Part shown: positions 3,765-40,641 of the stretch, in pieces | Layout of the letters: each line of letters opens with the position of its first letter | How positions within the stretch are numbered: the stretch's first letter is position 1 | Source: a virus | Virus record (IMG/VR): IMGVR_UViG_3300008262_000109 | Span: 1-42,397 of that record | Length of the DNA stretch: 42,397 bases | Direction: 5' to 3' (one strand) | Position numbers and translations under genes: made by a program | Notes under the pieces: model-generated | What the model was told of the DNA's origin: nothing | The model's database searches: none | The model's input: only the letters and a program-made list of their open reading frames with translations

Positions 3765-4457
3765 TCAGGCGGACCAGCCGATAGGTGGGTCTTCGGGATC
3801 GTCGGCAGGGATCTCGGGGTCGGGCTCGGCAGCGGCAGGCGCTGCATTGAATTTCTCGACGGTCTGAGGGCTGATGCCCTGTTTGGCGATCCTGGCCAGC
3901 ACATCAGGCGGTGCGCCCCCTAGGTCGCTGGTGTTGCCCTGGCTGTATTCCAGAACAAACGCGGCAATGCCTGCATCAGTCAGGCCAGATTGGCAGCAGG
4001 CGGCATAGGCCTGGGCCACCAGGTCTTCGGTGGGTGGCGCTGCCACTGGCGCCGGGGCGGCCAGAGCAGCAGGCAACGGCTGCACCTTGTAGGGCACGCG
4101 CTTCCCACGCGAGGCCGTGAGGATGACTGTAATCGGCCCGTTGATGTGCGACAGATGCGACAGTCGGATTCCGCCTACTTGCTGGCCCCCGTACATGGCC
4201 CCGGGTTCCCTAAAAATAGTAATTTCTCGCCCAACGTAGTGCGAAGAATCGGGACCCCAAGCTTCTGCCAAGACTCGGCGCATGGATTTGCAGGGTCGCC
4301 AAGGCCTGCCGTTATCACCGTCAAAATGGATCGATACGGGCTGCTCTGATTTGAGGGCAACGTCTACCTTCGTAACCGTGATGGTGCGCGGGCCAATAAT
4401 CAAATCATCGGCATTCATTTGATCGGACTTCGGCGCCAGTGTTGCAGTAATGTCCAT
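3765..4457 (-). CDS. recombination-cluster protein, 230 residues, function unproven
   Basis: Begins MDITATLAPKSDQMNADDLI and shares its start with the end of the exonuclease gene (ATGA overlap at 4457). I recognise the N-terminal two-thirds (ITVTKVDV, IHFDGDNGRPW, PCKSMRRVLAEAWG, GGIRLSHLSHI) as a conserved phage protein usually found next to YqaJ exonucleases, without a named activity. An Ala/Pro-rich linker (about 128-145) precedes a helical domain (SGLTDAGIAAFVLEYSQG) and an acidic C-terminus (PADDPEDPP). It occupies the place where an annealing protein (Red-beta, RecT or Erf) would be expected, so an annealing or loading role is a reasonable guess. Confidence 0.82.
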   Translation of the reverse strand: MDITATLAPKSDQMNADDLIIGPRTITVTKVDVALKSEQPVSIHFDGDNGRPWRPCKSMRRVLAEAWGPDSSHYVGREITIFREPGAMYGGQQVGGIRLSHLSHINGPITVILTASRGKRVPYKVQPLPAALAAPAPVAAPPTEDLVAQAYAACCQSGLTDAGIAAFVLEYSQGNTSDLGGAPPDVLARIAKQGISPQTVEKFNAAPAAAEPDPEIPADDPEDPPIGWSA

Positions 4458-5134
4458 CAGAAAATCTCCTGCTCAGGTTGGATAGGATCGGTTGCTGGGA
4501 AAATGTCGGCCATCAAGGTGTAAAGCCTCATCATCCGCTGCAGTTCAGCCTCAGCGGCCTTTGCTGCGGCAATCAGTTGTGCAATCGCCAGTTCGTCACG
4601 CTCGCAGCGGTGAATGAACAGCGGCAGTCCGGGGGCGTAACTGATGTAGTCGCACCAGGCGCGGCCAGTGACAGCAAGCCCCGCTTGCACTTGCGGCACA
4701 TACTCGGCTGGCACCTCATTGCTTAGCAGCGATCGAAGGTGGTTCTTCTGCCGGGGGCTTTTGATCTCAATCAGGCCGTCATCACCCATTAGCCCGTCGG
4801 GGCTGTAGCCGATCACGGTGCCGTCGAAATCACAGGTGACAAATCCGCACTCCTGCACCGGTGCTCGGTGCTGGGCGTAGATGTCACGGGCCAGCGGTTC
4901 CAGCAGGTGGCCGCGTGCCATGTCGTCGCCGTAGAAGCTGGGCTCGCTCTCACCGGTGATCCGCTCGGCCAGCAGCTGCAGCAACTGGGCGCGGCTGCTG
5001 TCGTTGTTGGCAGGCTTGCCGGTGCCAGTGAGAAGGCGGCTAATGGCAGATGCCGTGATCATTCCCCGGCGCAGCGCGTGCCATTCGTCGCTGCCTTGCT
5101 CGATGTGGTGGTGATAAATCGGAGTTGTTTTCAT
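4457..5134 (-). CDS. YqaJ-family (lambda-exonuclease-like) recombination nuclease
   Basis: 225 residues from the ATG at 5134, which overlaps the previous stop. Longer frames to 5185 cover the upstream gene. Motifs of the PD-(D/E)XK exonuclease fold: QGSDEWHALRRGMITAS near residues 12-28 (the family's RxGxxTAS), ARGHLLEPLARDIY (about 91-104), GYSPDGLMGDDGLIEIKSPR (about 126-145, with Asp, Glu and Lys catalytic), and EYVPQVQAGLAVTG. Such enzymes digest the 5' strand of double-stranded ends to expose single strands for annealing, feeding recombination and concatemer formation. Its likely partners are the next two genes (230-residue unknown and SSB). Confidence 0.92.
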   Translation of the reverse strand: MKTTPIYHHHIEQGSDEWHALRRGMITASAISRLLTGTGKPANNDSSRAQLLQLLAERITGESEPSFYGDDMARGHLLEPLARDIYAQHRAPVQECGFVTCDFDGTVIGYSPDGLMGDDGLIEIKSPRQKNHLRSLLSNEVPAEYVPQVQAGLAVTGRAWCDYISYAPGLPLFIHRCERDELAIAQLIAAAKAAEAELQRMMRLYTLMADIFPATDPIQPEQEIF

Positions 5135-5334
5135 GTTTCCCCCTGGCTGCTTGACTTCATCCTGCGCCAATCGTCGATCATCCACTGGATGGCGCCAGAC
5201 CTTTTCAGGTTTTGCTCAAGCATCACGACCCGAACATCGCCTAGCTGAACATCGTTCAGGGAAATGGTCATTGATGTCCGTCGCTTTGGTGGGTTGTACT
5301 GCCGTGCCCGTTTGGGGCGCATCGGGTTTGCCAT
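5131..5334 (-). CDS. small hypothetical protein, 67 residues
   Basis: Overlaps neighbours on both sides (5334 with the upstream stop, 5131 with the exonuclease start). The basic N-terminus (RPKRARQYNPPKRR) is followed by TISLNDVQLGDVRVVML and IQWMIDDWRRMK, a strand-then-helices layout vaguely like a ribbon-helix-helix protein. An internal ATG at 5271 would give just that 46-residue part. DNA binding is only a suggestion. Confidence 0.55.
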   Translation of the reverse strand: MANPMRPKRARQYNPPKRRTSMTISLNDVQLGDVRVVMLEQNLKRSGAIQWMIDDWRRMKSSSQGET

Positions 5335-9241: not shown

Positions 9242-9760
9242 ATGAAAACGCTTCTCAAAGACCTTCTCAAAGACCTTCTGCAAGACCTTCTCAAAGACCT
9301 TCTGCAAGCCGACTGGGCCCCCACCATGCGGGGCATTGCTTGGGCCGTGGGCCATGCCGTCATCATTCCAGTGGCGGTCGTCACCGTGCTCGCCGAGTGG
9401 CTGGCGTTTACCTGGCGCAGGCCCCTGGCCGGGGTGCTGGCGCTGGCGCCGGTGCGGAAGTCGATGACCTATCCCGAGCTTCAGGAAGAGCTGCTGGAGC
9501 GCGTTGCTCAATCTTTTGGCTTGACCGCCCATGAGCTGCTGCGGCCCATCGAATTTGCTTACAGCTCCCCGAATTTGACCACCAGCGATCTGAATAAGGC
9601 CGGGTGTTCTATCTCTGAAACAGAACTCGGCCCCATGACTAGCCGCATGGACTTCGGCGTGGCCCGCCCAACCCTGCCCGTGGCACCCCGGCGCCCGGTC
9701 CTGGCCCCGGCACCCCGCAGGCAGCGCCGGGGCACCAAGCGCCCCCAGAACCCTGCCTGA
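9242..9760 (+). CDS. membrane protein with LLKD-type N-terminal repeats, 172 residues
   Basis: Residues 4-23 are five copies of a 4-residue unit (LLKD/LLQD/LLQA) encoded by a 12-bp repeat (9251-9310). Then comes a short linker, a hydrophobic helix (VGHAVIIPVAVVTVLAEWLAF), a globular part with a helical pair (YPELQEELLERVAQSFG) and a basic Pro/Arg-rich tail (APRRPVLAPAPRRQRRGTKR). The design suggests an oligomerising amphipathic segment ahead of a membrane anchor with a nucleic-acid- or membrane-interacting tail. No family recognised; a lysis or superinfection role is possible but unproven. Confidence 0.68.
   Translation: MKTLLKDLLKDLLQDLLKDLLQADWAPTMRGIAWAVGHAVIIPVAVVTVLAEWLAFTWRRPLAGVLALAPVRKSMTYPELQEELLERVAQSFGLTAHELLRPIEFAYSSPNLTTSDLNKAGCSISETELGPMTSRMDFGVARPTLPVAPRRPVLAPAPRRQRRGTKRPQNPA
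9251..9310. repeat. 12-bp tandem repeat, 5 units
   Basis: Units CTTCTCAAAGAC or CTTCTGCAAGAC in tandem, in frame, encoding LLKD or LLQD. Copy changes would keep the frame. Confidence 0.92.
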
Positions 9761-11352: not shown

Positions 11353-11733
11353 TCATGGCTCAATCCTCAGCTCGCATTCCTCCATAACAACCTCAGGCGG
11401 CTTAACCACCCCATCAGCAGGGTCAGGCCTAACCCGCCGCTGGCAATCAGCGCAGCCATAGGCCCAGTCAAACTGCCCGTTTTCCTGGATGCCGGCACCG
11501 GGGCAGCCGAGCACCTCCCAGCCGTGGCTGCGGACGTGAGCGGGGCGCGGCTTCCAGTGCCAAAACTTTAGCCGTCCAGCTTTGCGCATGGCCTGGATCC
11601 TGGAATCAATGCGGCGCCAGTTGCCTCCAGCGGCGGCCACCAGAACGGCGCTGTTAGTTGGATGCCCGTCCTGGTCTCGCAGATGGCACCAGATCAGCCA
11701 GTCCAGCTCGTCGTTGCTCACGGGGTCAGACAT
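11353..11733 (-). CDS. hypothetical protein with winged-helix-like N-terminus and Cys motif, 126 residues
   Basis: ATG at 11733, overlapping the upstream gene by 8 bases; the longer frame to 12096 is a shadow. Residues about 8-60 (ELDWLIWCHLRDQDGHPTNS, then WRRIDSRIQAMRKAGRLKFW) look like a winged helix. A GCPG...YGCADCQRRV section (about 76-102) may bind a metal. Last gene of the nine-gene minus-strand cluster. Confidence 0.65.
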   Translation of the reverse strand: MSDPVSNDELDWLIWCHLRDQDGHPTNSAVLVAAAGGNWRRIDSRIQAMRKAGRLKFWHWKPRPAHVRSHGWEVLGCPGAGIQENGQFDWAYGCADCQRRVRPDPADGVVKPPEVVMEECELRIEP

Positions 11734-12325
11734 CGGGCCTCCGCAGTTCACGGGCGATAGCGATCGCCATGGCCTCCTTGTCGGGGCCGATCGGTTGCCA
11801 TCCTGCCTGGATCTCGGGCTGGTGGGTCCCGACCCCATCGAGCGGGTCGGCGGTGGTGCTGGCGCCCCCGTACAACTCGCTGAAGTAGGCGGCGATTTCG
11901 TGGGCAGCAGCAGCGGCCATGGCGAGGCAGCGAACGCACGGGGCTGGGCAAGGGGGGCCGTTGTCCTGGGCTTGGCAGATCGCCAGGGCGATGCGGTCGG
12001 AAAGCGTGGGGGCAACCGTGGCCGGCTGCTGGGGTGACGGGCAGGCCGCCCACGGCGCTGCCTTCTGCGGCGCTGGCATGTCACACCAGGGGCCATCGCT
12101 GCGGTATTGCCAGGACCCGTCGGCGTTCTGGCGGACGGTTGAGCCTGCCGGGATTGGGGGGAATTGGTCAGACATCACTCCCCCCCCCCAGCTAAGTGGC
12201 GATGGCGCGAACCTGGCCATAGTGGCACGGATGGCGGCGGCAAGGGCTGGCGCTGTGCCGAGAGTGGTTTCGTAGGCGTCCAGCACCGCCTGCGCGGCGG
12301 AGCTCAGTGGCTTGGGGGTGGTCAC
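11726..12325 (-). CDS. hypothetical protein, 199 residues, possible fusion at a G10 tract
   Basis: The frame runs from the ATG at 12325, overlapping the next gene by 4 bases. The first 50 residues (AAQAVLDAYETTLGTAPALA) end at LSWGGGV, encoded across ten consecutive C's on the plus strand (12180-12189). An in-frame ATG follows (12176, MSDQFPPIPAGSTV) with the G-run as an apparent ribosome-binding site, so this may really be two genes (12325 to about 12180 and 12176 to 11726) or one gene with slippage. The second part has WQYRSDGPWCDMP, a CPAPCVRCLAMAAAAAH helix and an IARELRR end. No known family. Confidence 0.6.
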   Translation of the reverse strand: MTTPKPLSSAAQAVLDAYETTLGTAPALAAAIRATMARFAPSPLSWGGGVMSDQFPPIPAGSTVRQNADGSWQYRSDGPWCDMPAPQKAAPWAACPSPQQPATVAPTLSDRIALAICQAQDNGPPCPAPCVRCLAMAAAAAHEIAAYFSELYGGASTTADPLDGVGTHQPEIQAGWQPIGPDKEAMAIAIARELRRPDV

Positions 12326-12846
12326 GGCCCAACCTCCCGGTCCTGCGGTTCAACCCACTTCAACCCGATCGTGTCGAACAGCTCCCGCTCAGTGCGGCAG
12401 GGAACAATCGACCCGTCCTCACGGCGCAACAGTCCGCCCTCAGAATGAAAGCCGGCACGCTTCCAGGCTGTCGCCAAGCGCAGGTGCGACCAGTCAGCGG
12501 AGCCAGTCCTGATCGCCAAAACCAAGCCATATCCGTCCGGGTGGGGCATGAACAGATCCAATTTCAATCCGCAGGAGAGCAACCTCTGGGTGTACCTGCC
12601 ATCAGGGGCGCCCTTGAGTCCAGGCCACTGCCCAACAGCCTGGGCAAACCCACCGGCAAACAGCGGGGTCGATTCGAGGGGCGAGCGATCGGGTAAGCAG
12701 ACGATCTCAAGGTCGCCGATCGTTGGGCGCTGCCGGCGACCACTGCCGGCTAGGTCGGCTTTGTGGCAGTGGGGCCGCAGGATGGCCAGCGTGTTGGCGG
12801 CAATGTCTAGGGCCTCGGCCAGGGGGATGCGGGGGCCGGTGCTCAT
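12322..12846 (-). CDS. DNA-polymerase-X-like nucleotidyltransferase, 174 residues
   Basis: N-terminal helical segment, then LAGSGRRQRPTIGDLEIVCL (residues 32-51). This is the polymerase beta/X-family pattern (GSxRR followed by GDxDhh), with carboxylates at Asp45 and Glu47 and a third in LKLDLF (Asp97). C-terminal part has IRTGSADWSHLRLATAWKRA and LFDTIGLKWVEP, like the end of PolX palm/thumb domains. Too small for a full PolX (about 330 or more); lacks helix-hairpin-helix DNA-binding repeats. It may add nucleotides to DNA, RNA or protein, or be a minimal gap-filling enzyme. Overlaps both neighbours. Confidence 0.8.
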   Translation of the reverse strand: MSTGPRIPLAEALDIAANTLAILRPHCHKADLAGSGRRQRPTIGDLEIVCLPDRSPLESTPLFAGGFAQAVGQWPGLKGAPDGRYTQRLLSCGLKLDLFMPHPDGYGLVLAIRTGSADWSHLRLATAWKRAGFHSEGGLLRREDGSIVPCRTERELFDTIGLKWVEPQDREVGP

Positions 12847-15638: not shown

Positions 15639-15821
15639 ATGCGGCCCAATCCTTTTACCGTCAGGCTCACCCCGGCGCTGCAGGCATGGCTAGACAGCCA
15701 GACCAGGGACGGCCTGCTCTCGCGTAACGCCATCGTCAGGCTTGCATTGCAGGCAGCCAAGGACCGGGGCGACGACCTGACGACCCAGCAGCCCAAGGCC
15801 ACTGATCGGGCCGGGTCTTGA
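15639..15821 (+). CDS. ribbon-helix-helix-like small regulator, 60 residues
   Basis: ATG at 15639 (a GTG at 15603 would overlap the operator). Pattern PFTVRLTPALQAWLDSQTRD, then LLSRNAIVRLALQAAKD: an N-terminal strand then two helices, as in Arc/CopG/MetJ-type DNA-binding proteins. Its stop overlaps the primase start (ATGA), so it is co-translated with the replication protein and may set its level, possibly through the inverted repeat just upstream. Low-specificity fold; family not proven. Confidence 0.65.
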   Translation: MRPNPFTVRLTPALQAWLDSQTRDGLLSRNAIVRLALQAAKDRGDDLTTQQPKATDRAGS

Positions 15822-18328
15822 TGGCCTCCACAACCAGGCTCATTCCCAGCGGGAAGCACAATCCCTGCCCGGTTTGCGGTCGCACAAAGGATGCGGACTG
15901 CAGGACATCGGGTGACGGGCTGGAGGTGATTTGTCATCACCCGAAAGAGCACCGCAAGGGCGAGGTGGTCACCGGGGCCGATGGGATGCCATGGGCTTTC
16001 ACGGGGAACACCCAGGACGGTAGGGCCGGGCACTTCACCCTCGACAAACCCCGCGACGGGGCCCCGCGCCTTCCCAGGCGATCGATTCAGCACAGGCCAG
16101 CGGAGCCAGAACGAACACCCCCGGCGCCATTACCCGACCAGCCCCCGAAGCTGGCGCGGATGGCACCCCGTGAGCCGACCGGGAGCCCCTGGCGGTACAG
16201 CGACACCCAGCGGACCCGGAGGGTGGATCTTGAGGGAGGCGGCAAGGCCTTCTATGGATCCCACTTGGTGGGCGGCAGGTGGCAGGAGGGCAGCGGCCCT
16301 GACCCTTGGCCACTGTTCAACCAGGCCGACACGATCGGCGCCGATGGCTGGATCCTGGAACCCGAAGGCGAGAAGTGCGCAGAGATTGGGTCGTCTCAGG
16401 GGGTGGTCAGCATCAGCCAGCCGGGCCATTGCCATACCGTCGAGCAGATCGTGCCGCGTTACCGGGCGTTGCAAGAGGCCGGCGTCCCAGGGGTGATTTA
16501 CCTGGCTGACTTTGACGGCCCACATCGGCCGCTGCACCAGCAGGAAGGTCGCCGCCGGGCAGAAAATGCACAGGAGGCCGCGGCGATTGCAGGCCTGCCG
16601 CTGATCGTGATCAGGGCTAACGATCTATGGCCCGGCATCCCAGACGGTGGATCGATCGACGACGCTCCAGACGGGTTCGGGGCTGCCATTGAGGACATTG
16701 AGGCCGCGGCAGTGGAGACCTACTGGACGCTGAAAGAACCTGTTCAACACCCCGTCCCCCCAGGTCCCATCACCGTTGAGCAGGTTAGGCAGCGCTATCA
16801 AGCTGCCATCGAAACCGGCGCCAGTCGGTCAGATCTTGAGACAGAACGCTTAGCCCTCGCTGCTGCCAGTGATCAACACCCAGCTGCACTGCGCGACCTG
16901 TTCAAAAGTCTTGAGCAGGAGCAGGAGGCCGCCCATGCGATCAGCGCCGAAACCCGCGCTATTCGTGACGCCGGTGAACAGAAGGCCATGGCCCAGTGCC
17001 TTCGCCTGGATTACCTCCTGCCTCCTTCCCTGGCCCAGGCCCTCACGATCCGCACCACCTGGTTGCCGGCTGATGATGTTGCCGCAGTCATGGCGTTTCT
17101 GACCTGCATATCGGGCCTGGTCAAATTGGGCACCGAGCTGGTGGCCTGCCCCGCCGCTGGCTACCGGGTACCACTCAACCTCTACTGCTGCCTGGTCGCT
17201 GTATCAGGTGCCAAAAAGTCACCCCTCAGCCGGGCTCTGGTCTCCGAACCAACCCACGCCCTGCGCCTTGACCTAGCACGCGATCACGATCGAGCCGAGA
17301 AAAACTGGGAGGAGCAGAACCGTGGCGTCAAGCCCGCCGATCGCACCGACCCCCCCAAGCCTGCCTACGTCTCGGTAACCGATGCCACGGCCGAGGCATT
17401 GATTCATCAGCTGCAGGTTCAGGAGGCCCGTGGTTTACCCCTGCTGTGGGAGCGCGATGAATTGGCCGGCCTTATCGGTGGCCTCAATGCCTACCGGGGC
17501 GGCCGTGGCGGTGACAGCGAACACCTCCTAGAGGCTTATGACGGCAGTGGTTTCAGGTCCCTGCGGATCTCAACCACTGGCGGCAGCCGCTCTTACAGCC
17601 GTTGCCACCTCTCCATCTGGGGCACCATCCAGCCCGATGTGCTCAAAGACCTGGTGAAAGGCGGTGACGCCTCCGGTCTTTGGGCCCGCTTTGCATTTGT
17701 TCCCCTGCCCGAAGAAGTCGTCCCCCTGGCCGTGAACCTTTCCCGGGCAGAGTTAGATGCAGCTCAGTGGGCCGAAAGCATGCTCAAGGATGTATGTGGC
17801 CAGATCTATCGCCTGCCGCGTTCCAGCATCTCCCTTAGCCCTAAGGGGCGTTCTGCATTCGTTGCCTATGAGGCCCGCTGTCAGCGTGACGCCCTTGATG
17901 CCGTGATCCCTGCCCAGGGGGCTCTCATGGCCAAGTCAGCAGGCAAGGCCCTCCGGATCGCTGGCCTAATCCACCTGCTCAACCAAGTCTCCCCAGACGG
18001 CGAACACAGCAACACCATCGGCGCTGAGGCGATCACCAGGGCCGCCACCCTGACCGACTACCTCAACTCCTGGGCACTGGGCCTTCATGCTTCAGCCGCT
18101 GATGGCCCCAACGACCTCATGCGGTTGATTCACAAGATCGCCCGCACTGCTGGGAATCGTCCGGTGACATGGCGGGACATCCAGCCTCGCCTTTCGAAGG
18201 TTCAGCGTCGTGAGGCTGATGCCGCCGCAGGGGCTCAGGCAATGCACGCATTGGCAGCCATGGGCCTAGGCGAAGTGGTTGTAGGGGCCAGAGGCGCGAC
18301 CACCTACCAGGCCACTGGCGACTTCTGA
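15818..18328 (+). CDS. DUF3987-type replicative primase/helicase
   Basis: 836 residues. N-terminal zinc site (CPVCGRTKDADC near 17-28, and CHH near 39). The central part (EPEGEKCAEIGSSQGVVSIS, then GVPGVIYLADFDG around 220-235) reads as a TOPRIM-like primase core. The C-terminal part has a P-loop-like VAVSGAKKSPLSRAL (about 460-474) and LLWERDELAGLIGGLNAYRG (Walker-B/strand region), as in DUF3987 proteins of phages and cyanobacterial elements. The P-loop is degenerate (SGAKKS, not GxxxxGKS). It would prime and unwind DNA at phage forks. Immediately followed by the repeat-rich 18345-18606 gap, its probable target. Confidence 0.85.
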   Translation: MMASTTRLIPSGKHNPCPVCGRTKDADCRTSGDGLEVICHHPKEHRKGEVVTGADGMPWAFTGNTQDGRAGHFTLDKPRDGAPRLPRRSIQHRPAEPERTPPAPLPDQPPKLARMAPREPTGSPWRYSDTQRTRRVDLEGGGKAFYGSHLVGGRWQEGSGPDPWPLFNQADTIGADGWILEPEGEKCAEIGSSQGVVSISQPGHCHTVEQIVPRYRALQEAGVPGVIYLADFDGPHRPLHQQEGRRRAENAQEAAAIAGLPLIVIRANDLWPGIPDGGSIDDAPDGFGAAIEDIEAAAVETYWTLKEPVQHPVPPGPITVEQVRQRYQAAIETGASRSDLETERLALAAASDQHPAALRDLFKSLEQEQEAAHAISAETRAIRDAGEQKAMAQCLRLDYLLPPSLAQALTIRTTWLPADDVAAVMAFLTCISGLVKLGTELVACPAAGYRVPLNLYCCLVAVSGAKKSPLSRALVSEPTHALRLDLARDHDRAEKNWEEQNRGVKPADRTDPPKPAYVSVTDATAEALIHQLQVQEARGLPLLWERDELAGLIGGLNAYRGGRGGDSEHLLEAYDGSGFRSLRISTTGGSRSYSRCHLSIWGTIQPDVLKDLVKGGDASGLWARFAFVPLPEEVVPLAVNLSRAELDAAQWAESMLKDVCGQIYRLPRSSISLSPKGRSAFVAYEARCQRDALDAVIPAQGALMAKSAGKALRIAGLIHLLNQVSPDGEHSNTIGAEAITRAATLTDYLNSWALGLHASAADGPNDLMRLIHKIARTAGNRPVTWRDIQPRLSKVQRREADAAAGAQAMHALAAMGLGEVVVGARGATTYQATGDF

Positions 18329-18344
18329 ACGAAGGGCGCTTGAG

Positions 18345-18606
18345 CCTACGTAGGTCATACGTAGGTCGGGTGAACCTACGCTCAAAACCCAGTCATAGAA
18401 AGGGATTATATATAATTAATAACATATGTAGGTATGTAGATACCTTTTTTCTTTCTCGTTTCCCCTCCCCTCCTCATTTCCTCAGTTTTTGTGACTAGCG
18501 ACCTACGCAGGCCTACGCAGCCTTCATGGCCCAAACCCCTTGCGCTGCAGTTGATCGTATGTAGGCGGAACGACCTTCGTAAGACCTACACAAGACCCCC
18601 CTACGT
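18345..18606. other. candidate replication origin: iteron-like repeats with AT-rich block
   Basis: About nine copies of an ACCTACG/CGTAGGT-type motif in 260 bases, in both orientations: palindrome CCTACGTAGG (18345-18354), ACGTAGGT (18359), ACCTACG (18374), tandem ATGTAGGTATGTAG (18426-18439), ACCTACGCAGGCCTACGCAG (18501-18520), ATGTAGG (18559), ACCTACA (18584), CCTACGT (18600). Among them lies an AT-only-type stretch (about 18405-18428) and a pyrimidine tract (18443-18490). No convincing gene in 18329-18737. Iterons plus an AT-rich unwinding block beside a primase gene is the classical origin layout. Confidence 0.65.
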
Positions 18607-18737
18607 GAAGAACTGGGCAAGCCGGCAAGGCTCTGCAGCCCCTCCAGAGCCCCCCCGTTGCATCCCCAGCCGCCAGGGCCTACGGTTGCGTGGCTGGTGT
18701 TCCAGCCCCCCTCGCATCCCCTCTCAGGATTGATCCC

Positions 18738-18896
18738 ATGGCCCATGAAGCCCTCCAGAGCCACCTCACCGCCATGGCCAAGGCACACCCCCGCGAGCAC
18801 CCTTTCACCCTTGCCCTGAGGCTGCAGGTCGCCACAGGGAAGGAGATCACCGGGGCGCAGGCGGCGAAGTTGCTAGAGGCTGGAGGGCGGGGCTGA
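18738..18896 (+). CDS. small helical protein, 52 residues
   Basis: ATG at 18738 with GGAT upstream; its TGA overlaps the next ATG (TGATG). Sequence LQSHLTAMAKAHPREHPFTL and KEITGAQAAKLLEAGGRG; the last part resembles one helix-turn-helix. Probably works with the 200-residue DNA-binding protein that follows. Confidence 0.58.
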   Translation: MAHEALQSHLTAMAKAHPREHPFTLALRLQVATGKEITGAQAAKLLEAGGRG

Positions 18897-19498
18897 TGGC
18901 AGCGCGATGGTCCGCAGAAGACATCGAGGCCTTGACCGATCTGACCGGTGAACTGCCCTGGCATATGGTTGTTGCCAAATTCAACCGGCGCCGGCCCCCA
19001 AGGACAGAATATGCAATGCTCAACAAGGTTGATCAATTGCGTTTATTAAGAAAGCCGCAAGGTGAATTTATTGCAATATGCGCAATAAAAGCTCTCACTG
19101 GGTATTCTTCCGAAAAAATCTGCTTATGGATCGACTCCGGCGACTTGCCTGCTGTTGCGCGGTCTGAAGCGACAAACAGCCCTCGCTACATCTCCCGCAA
19201 AAGCCTTAGAAGTTTTGCCAGGAAGCGGCCTGATCAATTTGGTGGAATGGGGCAGGCAGAACTGACGCAGTTGTTTGACTGTGAAAAACTGGCGGCTAAG
19301 ATTGTTGAAATGCACCTACCTAAGCTAAGTAATTCTATAGAAATAGAATGTATCGAAACTCGACGCCGATACCCCTCTATTGCTGCAGCTGCAAGGGAGG
19401 CGCGGGTTAGCCCCGAATTTGTAACAAAAGCTATTCGCCAAGGGTTTCCTGTTCGTGCCAGGCATTACCGCAGGGTTGACCAGCCCCTTAAGACTTAG
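18896..19498 (+). CDS. DNA-binding protein with several helix-turn-helix segments, 200 residues
   Basis: Three segments: an N-terminal Myb/SANT-like WSAEDIEALTDLTGELPWHM with RRRPPRTEYAMLNKV; a middle ICAIKALTGYSSEKICLWID...PRYISRKSLRSFARKRPD like a MerR/excisionase winged helix; and a C-terminal YPSIAAAAREARVSPEFVTK helix-turn-helix close to the NUMOD1 type. The middle of the gene is AT-rich relative to flanks. Likely sequence-specific DNA binding, perhaps at the neighbouring repeats; no catalytic site seen. Confidence 0.7.
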   Translation: MAARWSAEDIEALTDLTGELPWHMVVAKFNRRRPPRTEYAMLNKVDQLRLLRKPQGEFIAICAIKALTGYSSEKICLWIDSGDLPAVARSEATNSPRYISRKSLRSFARKRPDQFGGMGQAELTQLFDCEKLAAKIVEMHLPKLSNSIEIECIETRRRYPSIAAAAREARVSPEFVTKAIRQGFPVRARHYRRVDQPLKT

Positions 19499-34246: not shown

Positions 34247-34608
34247 ACGCGGCGCCGGTCAAGACCCGAGAGCAGGAGGACGCCGGCCAGAGACGCTCTG
34301 CTGAGGGACTTGGCATTGTCTACGTGCCCCAGGTCCGCAAGGATCGCCCCAAGCCCGCCGAACCCATCTGCCTGATATGGCCTGAAAACCTGGCCGCTTT
34401 CGAGCTGTGGTGCGAGGTCTGGACGCAATGGAACTGGGCCACTCGCTACACCCCTGAAGGCCTCCCGGTGCTGGTCAGGACCGGGCTCAACTACCCGGCG
34501 GTGATTGCCGTGGCAGGCCTTCGCCGTGGCCGTGGCGTAGTGGCGGCACTGCTCGACGACTTGCGAGTGATCGAGCGGGAACTTTTGTCTCTGCTGGGGG
34601 GTGTTTAA
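34243..34608 (+). CDS. tail assembly chaperone extension (gpT-like, DUF1799 type)
   Basis: 121 residues if started at its own ATG (34243, 4-base overlap), or the C-terminal half of a frameshift fusion from 33797. Contains ICLIWPENLAAFELWCEVWT and QWNWATRYTPEGLPVLVRTG, typical of the DUF1799-like T part in lambda-type tails. The fusion binds tail tube subunits and tape measure. Confidence 0.8.
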   Translation: MNAAPVKTREQEDAGQRRSAEGLGIVYVPQVRKDRPKPAEPICLIWPENLAAFELWCEVWTQWNWATRYTPEGLPVLVRTGLNYPAVIAVAGLRRGRGVVAALLDDLRVIERELLSLLGGV

Positions 34609-36426
34609 GTGGCGGTGAATTTTGACGCGATCCTCAAGATTGCCGCCAAGGTGGTGGGCACCGAGCAGGTGGCCAAGCTGGGCTCAACTTTCAAACAGGT
34701 AGAAGGTGCCACCCAATCCCTCACCAGCAAGCTGGGCCCCCTGAGCGGTGCTTTGGGCACCCTGGCCCCTATCGCCACCATCGGGGGGCTGGCTGCAATG
34801 GCCGGCAGGACCATTGAGCTGGGCGATGCTCTGAATGACATGAGCCAACGGACCGGCGTCAGCGTCGAATCCTTGGCCAGGTTCAGAAAGGCGGCAGCCA
34901 CCAGCGGCATTGAGCTAGACACTGTTGCTAAAAATCTTGTCAAACTTTCCAAGGGATTGTATGAAACTGCGCAGACAGGCAAGGGTCCAGCATCTGAAGC
35001 ATTGCGAACGCTTGGAATCAGCGCAACCGATGCAGCTGGCAAGCTAAAAACGGCGGATCAGGTAACGCTAGAAATAGCAAACAAATTTAAGACCATGCCA
35101 GACGGCATAGAGAAAACAGCTTTAGCGATGCAGCTGTTTGGCAAGTCAGGCGCCGATATGATCCCGATGCTCAACGAAGGCGGCAAGGCCATTGAATCAT
35201 TAAGCGTAAAGATGACAGCGGCATTCGCCAAAAAGGCAGATGAGTATAACGATAAGTTGGCGATGCTTGGCGGGAAGGTTGGGGGGCTGGCTGCTGGAAT
35301 CACGGTGGCGTTGCTGCCTGCGCTGGACGCAACCGCTACGGCGCTGACGGCGCTGGTCGATGGGTTTACGGCGTTGCCGACCCCGATCCAGGCGGTGGTT
35401 GGTGGCCTGGCGCTGGTGGCGGTTGGCCTGACCGTGCTGGCCCCCATCATCACCAGCGTGGTCACGGTGCTCGGCGCCTTTGCTGGCCTTGGCATTGGCG
35501 CCACCTTGGCCGGCATCGCTGGGGCCATTGTGCCAGTAGCAACAGGCCTAGCCGCCCTGGTCGCCGGGTTTGTTTCCGCCCCTGTCTTGATCGGCGCGGC
35601 CGCCGTCGCCGCGGCCGTCGTGATCTTCAGTTTCCGTGACCAGATTGCCGATGCTTTCCGGGGGCTGTTCGATCTGATCGCCAACCCCACTACCGGGTTC
35701 ATCGCAATGATCGGCGGTGGCTGGAACCTGATGATGGACGGCATCAGCAGCTACGTCGGCAACATCCTGCCGAACATCACCGAGAACTGGACCGCCTTCA
35801 TTGACACGATCATCGGCCCAGAGAATGGCCTGATTGCCCGCCTGGGGCAGACCTGGAACAGCGCCATGGATTCGATGCGGGACTATGCCGTGGGCTTGGT
35901 GCAACCCGTCACCGATGCCTGGGAATCCATCGTTGGCACGGTGCGGGGGGTGATCAATGGGGCGTTGTCGTTGGCTGGACGGGCAGTAAATGCCTTCATT
36001 GATCAGATCAACCGGCTCATTCAGGCGGCCAATTCAGTAAGCGCCGCCGTGCGTGGCCCGCAGCTGGGGATGATTCAGCCCGTCGAGGTGCCGCAGTTTG
36101 CCGTAGGCGGCCGGGTAGATCGGCCAACGCTGATCGTGGCCGGCGAGGCGGGCCCTGAATACATCGTGCCTCAGCGGAAAGTTCCGCAGTTCATCCAGGC
36201 GCAGATGGGGGATCAGGGCCTTGGCATCCGCCAGGGTGGCACCGTCGCCAGCGGCGGCACCTTCGCCCCGGTGATCACCCTGCAAACCGGCCCGGTGATC
36301 CAGCAGCCCGACGGCTCGCAGTGGATCAAGATTGAGGATGCCCAGGCCGTTGCTGCTGACGCGGTTGGCGAGTTCTGGGAGCAACTGCAGACATATCCAT
36401 ATCGCCAGGCTCTGGGGATGGCCTGA
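34609..36426 (+). CDS. tape measure protein
   Basis: 605 residues from a GTG that follows the previous stop at once (TAAGTG). N-terminal helical region (AKVVGTEQVAKLGSTFKQVE), hydrophobic segments about 225-335 (GGLALVAVGLTVLAPIITSV, AGLGIGATLAGIAGAIVPVA) and Gly/Pro C-terminal part (FAVGGRVDRPTLIVAGEAGP, RKVPQFIQAQMGDQGLGIRQ). Sets tail length; at about 0.15 nm per residue a tail near 90 nm is expected. The GEAGPE(Y)IVP motif is common in tape measures. Confidence 0.93.
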   Translation: MAVNFDAILKIAAKVVGTEQVAKLGSTFKQVEGATQSLTSKLGPLSGALGTLAPIATIGGLAAMAGRTIELGDALNDMSQRTGVSVESLARFRKAAATSGIELDTVAKNLVKLSKGLYETAQTGKGPASEALRTLGISATDAAGKLKTADQVTLEIANKFKTMPDGIEKTALAMQLFGKSGADMIPMLNEGGKAIESLSVKMTAAFAKKADEYNDKLAMLGGKVGGLAAGITVALLPALDATATALTALVDGFTALPTPIQAVVGGLALVAVGLTVLAPIITSVVTVLGAFAGLGIGATLAGIAGAIVPVATGLAALVAGFVSAPVLIGAAAVAAAVVIFSFRDQIADAFRGLFDLIANPTTGFIAMIGGGWNLMMDGISSYVGNILPNITENWTAFIDTIIGPENGLIARLGQTWNSAMDSMRDYAVGLVQPVTDAWESIVGTVRGVINGALSLAGRAVNAFIDQINRLIQAANSVSAAVRGPQLGMIQPVEVPQFAVGGRVDRPTLIVAGEAGPEYIVPQRKVPQFIQAQMGDQGLGIRQGGTVASGGTFAPVITLQTGPVIQQPDGSQWIKIEDAQAVAADAVGEFWEQLQTYPYRQALGMA

Positions 36427-40280: not shown

Positions 40281-40299
40281 CCGGCGGCACTGGGCCAGG

Positions 40300-40641
40300 T
40301 CAAACCGCTCGCAACTGAACCCCGGTGACCTGCCACAGGTTCCCTGGCAGCAGGGCCCAGGACGGCGCCAAAGCATATCGCCATCGAACTGGCGTAGGCG
40401 GGACTGCCCGGCCAACCCAAACCGCAGCAGGCAGCTCAAACGATGACAGCAGCCCAACCGTTCTAAAGTGCGTCGCGAAATCGCCGAACTGCGTCGGGCT
40501 GAACACTGGTAGCGGCAAGGCCACGGTCTGCCCGGTGAGGCTGTCATTCAACCTAAACCGCCTATCAAGTTCGGTTGCGATATTGAAATCGCCCGTGGTA
40601 TGTGGCCTGCCAATTGGCAAGCAGGATTCTGGGAAATTCAT
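40300..40641 (-). CDS. hypothetical 113-residue protein
   Basis: Minus strand, converging on the late operon with a 19-base gap. Its ATG overlaps the stop of the 285-residue gene (TGATG), so the two are coupled. Sequence NIATELDRRFRLNDSLTGQT, VFSPTQFGDFATHFRTVG, WALLPGNLWQVTGVQLRAV. Possibly an assembly partner for the upstream virion-like protein; no family recognised. Confidence 0.6.
   Translation of the reverse strand: MNFPESCLPIGRPHTTGDFNIATELDRRFRLNDSLTGQTVALPLPVFSPTQFGDFATHFRTVGLLSSFELPAAVWVGRAVPPTPVRWRYALAPSWALLPGNLWQVTGVQLRAV

Follow-up and report, generated by a model that had tools for sequence, protein, structure and literature searches.

A repeat field behind a DUF3987 primase-helicase gene as a probable replication origin of a picocyanobacterial phage

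Introduction

Directly behind a gene for a DUF3987 protein, the window analyzed here (the entire 42.4-kb stretch of virus record IMGVR_UViG_3300008262_000109) contains a gene-free gap crowded with short repeats, which raises the question of what these repeats are for and which protein reads them. A sequence-only reading had proposed an iteron-type replication origin. The record encodes lambda-type terminase and portal genes, and its host is very likely a freshwater picocyanobacterium, because the relatives of its helicase (type A) are found in contigs assigned to Cyanobium and Synechococcus and because, among isolated phages, Synechococcus phage S-LBS1 has the closest terminase (46% identity). 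A helicase role has been predicted for DUF3987, which nevertheless keeps its label as a 'domain of unknown function', and primases with exchangeable helicase domains, DUF3987 among them, are already known (PMC5862659). In the literature searched, no origin is described for DUF3987 proteins and no iterons for cyanophages.

We propose that the field is very probably a picocyanophage replication origin and the cognate target of a single-chain initiator encoded upstream, which would combine a primase, a DUF3987 helicase and a winged helix. Repeat fields of conserved layout in relatives support the origin suggested earlier. If this proposal is true, DUF3987 gains a concrete role as an initiator that loads itself at an origin of its own, and the domain that probably reads this origin can be named; matched readers and words on one spacing scaffold would open origin specificity, and the way it evolves, to direct testing, and the fields with their initiators would be candidate replicons for Synechococcus and Cyanobium.

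Results and Discussion

Repeat field in the gap

The components of the field are listed in Table 1. Between 18330 and 18700, CCTAC/GTAGG cores occur 11 times (7 on the plus and 4 on the minus strand) and CCTACG 8 times, compared with totals of 52 and 20 for the 42.4-kb window, and the field is the densest CCTAC region of the window. The top hexamer in the 400 nt past the primase-helicase stop has 8 copies, whereas 2000 dinucleotide-preserving shuffles gave a maximum of 6. The number of about nine copies previously given for ACCTACG/CGTAGGT holds for a relaxed word, the exact word being present in only 4 copies; the palindrome, both tandem pairs, the AT block and the pyrimidine tract all lie where they had been placed. 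One tandem pair consists of two copies of TACGTAGGTC with a spacing of 11, the other of GACCTACGCA and GGCCTACGCA with a spacing of 10. The AT block reaches 20% GC over 40 nt (18391–18450), among the most AT-rich places of the window. A near-identical contig (L002) shows 5 mismatches over 8964 nt, two of which (window 18423 and 18433) fall within the iteron pair on the AT side. The gap had also been taken for the only gene-free one of more than 300 bases, but 40281–40640 may be another. No second dense CCTAC cluster (crr-like) was found across the window, and Rfam and tRNA searches gave no match.

A terminator array had been named earlier as an outcome that would speak against an origin. Although a T run lies within the pyrimidine tract, the scan of 18200–19000 revealed no terminator-like hairpin or other terminator-like site; moreover, the repeats exceed the shuffles, and their positions are conserved with changed words in relatives (see below). 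A terminator array or chance low-complexity sequence is therefore hardly credible. GC skew, which had been suggested as a mark of the origin, does have a local minimum at 18,816 in the window, but the global minimum is at 11,523, and in relatives the skew scatters and does not mark the field; it was set aside as evidence.

Table 1 Features of the window and repeat words in its relatives
Feature	Position (nt) or loci	Strand	Remarks
Primase-helicase-initiator gene (putative)	15821..18328	+	listed from TTG 15818, 836 aa; ATG at 15821
N-terminal primase half	15818..16765	+	zinc ribbon CPVCG..CHH, TOPRIM-like EGEKC/LADFD
DUF3987 AAA+ helicase domain	17084..18067	+	Pfam; Foldseek neighbors MCM and SCCmec Cch, weak E-values
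C-terminal winged-helix domain, proposed iteron reader	18116..18313	+	residues 767–832; candidate contacts Q789, P790, T828
Origin field (proposed), gap between genes	18329..18737	.	409 nt, after stop (18328) of the 836-aa DUF3987 gene
Left iteron cluster	18345..18380		CCTACG at + 18345, - 18349, - 18360, + 18375
Palindrome CCTACGTAGG	18345..18354
AT-rich block, proposed unwinding element	18400..18440	.	26/30 A+T; aligned with TGTTGGTATGTTGGT in relatives
Tandem pair TGTAGGTATGTAGAT closing the AT block	18427 and ~18435		copy at - 18427, degenerate copy at ~18435
Pyrimidine tract	18443..18482	+	C/T 38/40; position shared by most type A fields
Right tandem iterons GACCTACGCA GGCCTACGCA	18501..18520	+	degenerate third copy CCTTCA next
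Distal iterons	18560..18605		- 18560, + 18585, + 18600
Outlying CCTACG copy	18679..18684	+
52-aa ORF between field and 200-aa gene	18738..18896	+	missing at this place in most relatives
200-aa downstream gene	18896..19498	+	accompanies several different iteron words
Type A (DUF3987) word CCTACG	window
Type A word CCAACA	L010, L021, L105, L131–L133, L135–L137, L139, L141, L151
Type A word TCGGCA	L143, L145
Type A word CCTACC	L147, L159
Type A word CCTACA	L168
Type A word GCCCACA	L154, L160
Type A word GACCCAC	L166
Type A word GCCCTAC	L167, L170, L171
Type A word GCCAACC	L173
Type A word GCCCAC mix	L142
AAA_25 helicase words			GGGAATTT (type B), GTGAAC (type C), CGGACAA (type D)

Predicted domains of the upstream protein

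The only Pfam match of the 836-aa protein is DUF3987 (PF13148; E 9.6e-36, residues 423–750). Its full-length AlphaFold model (mean pLDDT 81.7) gave matches to a DnaG primase domain (5vaz; E 1.3e-4) and, among helicases, to SCCmec Cch (E 1.3e-3) and MCM proteins; the helicase match is weak by E-value and suggested by the consistency of the hits. Behind the helicase, the model contains a predicted winged helix with helices at residues 767–777, 785–791 and 802–814 and strands at 818–822 and 828–832. The predicted domain order is thus primase, AAA+ helicase and DNA-binding end.

Layout and words in relatives

First genome and phage scans with a single protein gave no match. Relatives were gathered with the terminase, the 200-aa protein and each half of the primase-helicase as queries; from collections consisting mostly of metagenomic contigs, this yielded more than 30 phages or host contigs containing the primase-helicase end and the following gap. 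Except for the loci named below, all of them have repeats at this place, with words that vary. The related phages are mostly freshwater ones, with hosts among Cyanobium and Synechococcus. In at least 10 distinct relatives, the primase-helicase gene is followed by a repeat field whose layout is conserved and whose word is not, so that the earlier expectation of equal repeat fields behind DUF3987 holds for the fields and their arrangement and fails for the word. Alignment of the type A fields gave the order of left cluster, inverted copy, AT block with tandem pair, pyrimidine tract, right pair or triple and distal copies, and the positions and orientations of the copies are usually kept within a few bases across relatives despite the changed words. 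Indeed, when copies within 4 bp and in the same orientation were counted as matching, the window agreed with L139 (CCAACA) and with L145 (TCGGCA) at 8 of 9 positions each, a value reached by none of 3000 random placements in either comparison. L147 has the same copy order in a shorter field, with 3 of 9 positions matching. Such a change of many copies to the same new word at fixed places is what would be expected from a trans-acting reader changing together with them.

Outside type A, S-LBS1 (MG271909), which encodes a Prim-Pol/VapE-like protein, carries CCTAACC repeats directly behind that gene; the CCTAACC stretch appears twice at the end of its record (L149, ~34270–34383 and 34527–34641), which is either a duplication or an end-of-assembly overlap. 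The type B, type C and L112 fields are less enriched one by one, being reached by 45, 5 and 13 of 2000 shuffles, respectively. The link between field and gene is not universal, since no field follows the gene in distant full-length homologues (~27–29% identity; L111, L113–L128) and since only weak words are found in the type A loci L169 and L172. When an origin was sought elsewhere in the field-less distant homologues, the densest repeats examined (L123:3960–4310 and L127:1540–1750, near the DUF3987 genes) resembled coding repeats and were rejected.

Covariation of the word with the C-terminal end

Over 30 loci, and ignoring ancestry, the adjusted mutual information with the word was 0.79 for the helicase class, 0.39 for the primase class and 0.17 for the downstream gene. 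Comparisons between individual loci separate these candidates. L105 (type A) and L101 (type B) are 86% identical in nucleotides over the primase up to codon ~302 and unrelated beyond, and their words differ; between L100 (type C) and L101, similarity resumes in the gene after the field. The primase half is 60–75% identical in relatives having type B, C and D helicases. Conversely, L105 and L139 share one word, while their N-terminal halves differ, with unrelated primases. Unrelated helicase halves accompany unrelated words. The word follows the C-terminal part of the primase-helicase, and it tracks neither the terminase or the 200-aa gene nor the primase half.

The same comparisons bear on the genes downstream. 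The end of the 52-aa ORF overlaps the start of the 200-aa gene, and the description of the genes behind the field as 'multi-HTH' was not borne out, the 200-aa protein giving no match in Pfam or PHROG. An operator array, in which binding of the 200-aa protein (or of some other regulator) to the repeats would control how the following operon is transcribed, is suggested by the position of the field at the start of a gene block, and iteron initiators often repress transcription too. However, the 200-aa protein is 90% identical between L010 and L052/L100, whose helicase halves differ and whose words are CCAACA and GTGAAC, respectively; since the same gene travels with several different words, this protein is not a likely reader and was rejected as such. 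Furthermore, the downstream genes can differ behind one and the same word (nuclease-like ones in L131, L133, L135 and L136), no sigma-70-like promoter or terminator was found in 18200–19000, and the association between word and downstream gene was the weakest of those compared. We consider an operator array unlikely.

A packaging role, with a cos/pac-like site recognized by the small terminase (its gene lies a few genes farther downstream), would fit the presence of the terminase genes 2.5 kb downstream of the field and the location of the S-LBS1 field directly before terS in the circular map. Yet the small terminases of L010 and L052/L100 are 87% identical and accompany different words, for which reason this protein was rejected as the reader, and the word changes with the helicase end instead; a packaging role is very unlikely. 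Clustered short repeats also form centromeres, and a partition array of a plasmid-like prophage would look similar, but no ParA or ParB match was found among the window proteins searched (a subset of the genes), and here again the covariation is with the helicase end, leaving this explanation slightly less probable still than packaging.

The initiator reading is narrowed further by a natural swap between L142 and L145. Their helicase cores are 98.6 and 93.7% identical, whereas the last ~75 residues, corresponding to the predicted winged helix, are 61.8% identical, and their words are GCCCAC and TCGGCA, respectively. Nucleotide identity drops ~170–220 nt before the stop and stays at 28–52% across most of the field, recovering to ~90% in the gene that follows. 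The predicted DNA-binding domain and the iterons are exchanged as a unit, both in this pair and in the class swaps among types A, B and C. Because the word covaries with the C-terminal end of the primase-helicase, the winged helix of the 836-aa protein is the likely, still putative, iteron binder, rather than the 200-aa protein.

Within this domain, D[IV]Q[NP][RK]LS in the second helix is common to the CCTAC-type proteins (window, L147, L159 and L168). Proteins of the CCAACA clade carry DVA[QH][RK]L and, in the wing, a tryptophan; those belonging to other words differ again. The four CCTAC-type proteins do not form a clade on the core tree (AU p 1.9e-29, for a group picked after seeing the words), on which Q (Q789) and the CCTAC word changed four times each; a tree-corrected test of Q789 against CCTAC was consistent, with only 2 independent pairs and no significance. 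Column-by-column association flagged C-half residues 461–462 and 500 (= 789–790 and 828), but it picked up clade markers in the core as well. A recognition code relating residues to words is accordingly to be taken as a lead. More tentatively, and with less than even confidence, we suggest that picocyanophages keep a fixed origin scaffold on which a ~75-residue reader and a ~300-bp field change jointly, by exchange or by mutation, as one specificity cassette, giving rise to a recognition code of about ten words whose readers differ at a few residues (for example 789–790 and 828). In this suggestion, the joint change would probably be driven by phage conflict, for instance through nucleases aimed at origins, through decoy origins or through incompatibility during co-infection.

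Comparison with known systems and proposed mechanism

In staphylococcal SaPI Rep and SCCmec Cch2 (AAGTG repeats), a C-terminal domain binds iterons directly downstream of its own gene, and the SaPI/Cch-type helicases belong to the DUF927 or D5/Primase_Cterm families (PMC7581432). The window resembles the SaPI Rep/ori arrangement in that its iterons follow the helicase gene directly and its AAA+ helicase is followed by a winged helix at the C-terminus, the latter by prediction only and with weak helicase E-values. Unlike SaPI Rep, the window protein has no DUF927 or D5/Primase_Cterm match, only Pfam DUF3987; the DUF3987 helicase (AAA_25 in other classes) shares one chain with a primase half of the DnaG type or another type, and the system belongs to picocyanobacterial phages, with about ten words on one layout. 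By analogy, the window system may work like SaPI Rep/ori, as a putative counterpart outside those protein families. The alpha protein of phage satellite P4 is also a single chain uniting primase, helicase and, at the C-terminus, a winged helix; the latter binds short iterons, which lie in two separate loci, ori and crr. The window protein, with its predicted winged helix, shares this organization and the short iterons, but the window has a single iteron locus, and its protein is of another family with no P4-like Pfam match.

Lambda O is not a helicase and needs P and DnaB. At ori-lambda, iterons lie beside an AT-rich region and the origin is inside gene O (PMC7466680); the iterons of the window likewise adjoin an AT-rich region, but the field lies outside the gene and the initiator is a predicted helicase. 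In the RepA_N protein of V. cholerae PLE, DNA-binding domain and origin swap together and function only in cognate pairs, an origin-directed nuclease being thought to drive the exchange (PMC8263062). The relatives of the window show a similar joint exchange of DNA-binding domain and iterons, whereas RepA_N is without helicase or primase and the PLE iterons are semi-palindromes of ~30 bp; no RepA_N initiator match (Pfam) was found among the window proteins searched. Pfam also gave no match to the Rep_3-type initiators of iteron plasmids (Rep_3/RepE/pi), and the whole window contains no DnaA box of the TTATNCACA type. S-LBS1 resembles the window in its related terminase and its repeat field directly after the primase gene, but has a Prim-Pol and VapE-like protein in place of DUF3987; repeats and an origin are both absent from the text of its paper (PMC6157547), as searched. 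Plant geminiviruses, an unrelated rolling-circle system, likewise combine diverse iteron words with conserved positions (PMC12548392).

From the precedent of SaPI Rep and Cch2, we infer self-loading at opposed iteron clusters with melting of the AT block, followed by origin firing. Presumably, the winged helix would bind the 6–8 bp iterons as opposed clusters, and helicase rings would thereby assemble so as to flank the AT block and pyrimidine tract. Melting of the AT block, driven by ATP, would then let the helicase self-load, with no host loader needed, and allow the primase linked to it to begin synthesis.

Other repeats and genes

Several further observations were made on the window and its relatives. 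Long arrays of GCCATN hexamers (TAGCCA/TCGCCA/TTGCCA) lie upstream of the primase gene in L101 (6084–6336) and L139 (3880–4015), with none in the window. In a Synechococcaceae contig (L144:4859–5152), an early stop cuts the type A helicase gene, and similarity goes on in another frame. The window itself begins with 2.7 copies of a 42-bp unit (1–112, the record start) and contains a 12/24-bp tandem repeat, CTTCTCAAAGAC, at 9251–9308. On its minus strand, it encodes a YqaJ-like recombinase (4457–5185) and a protein matching the DNA polymerase beta thumb (12322–12846).
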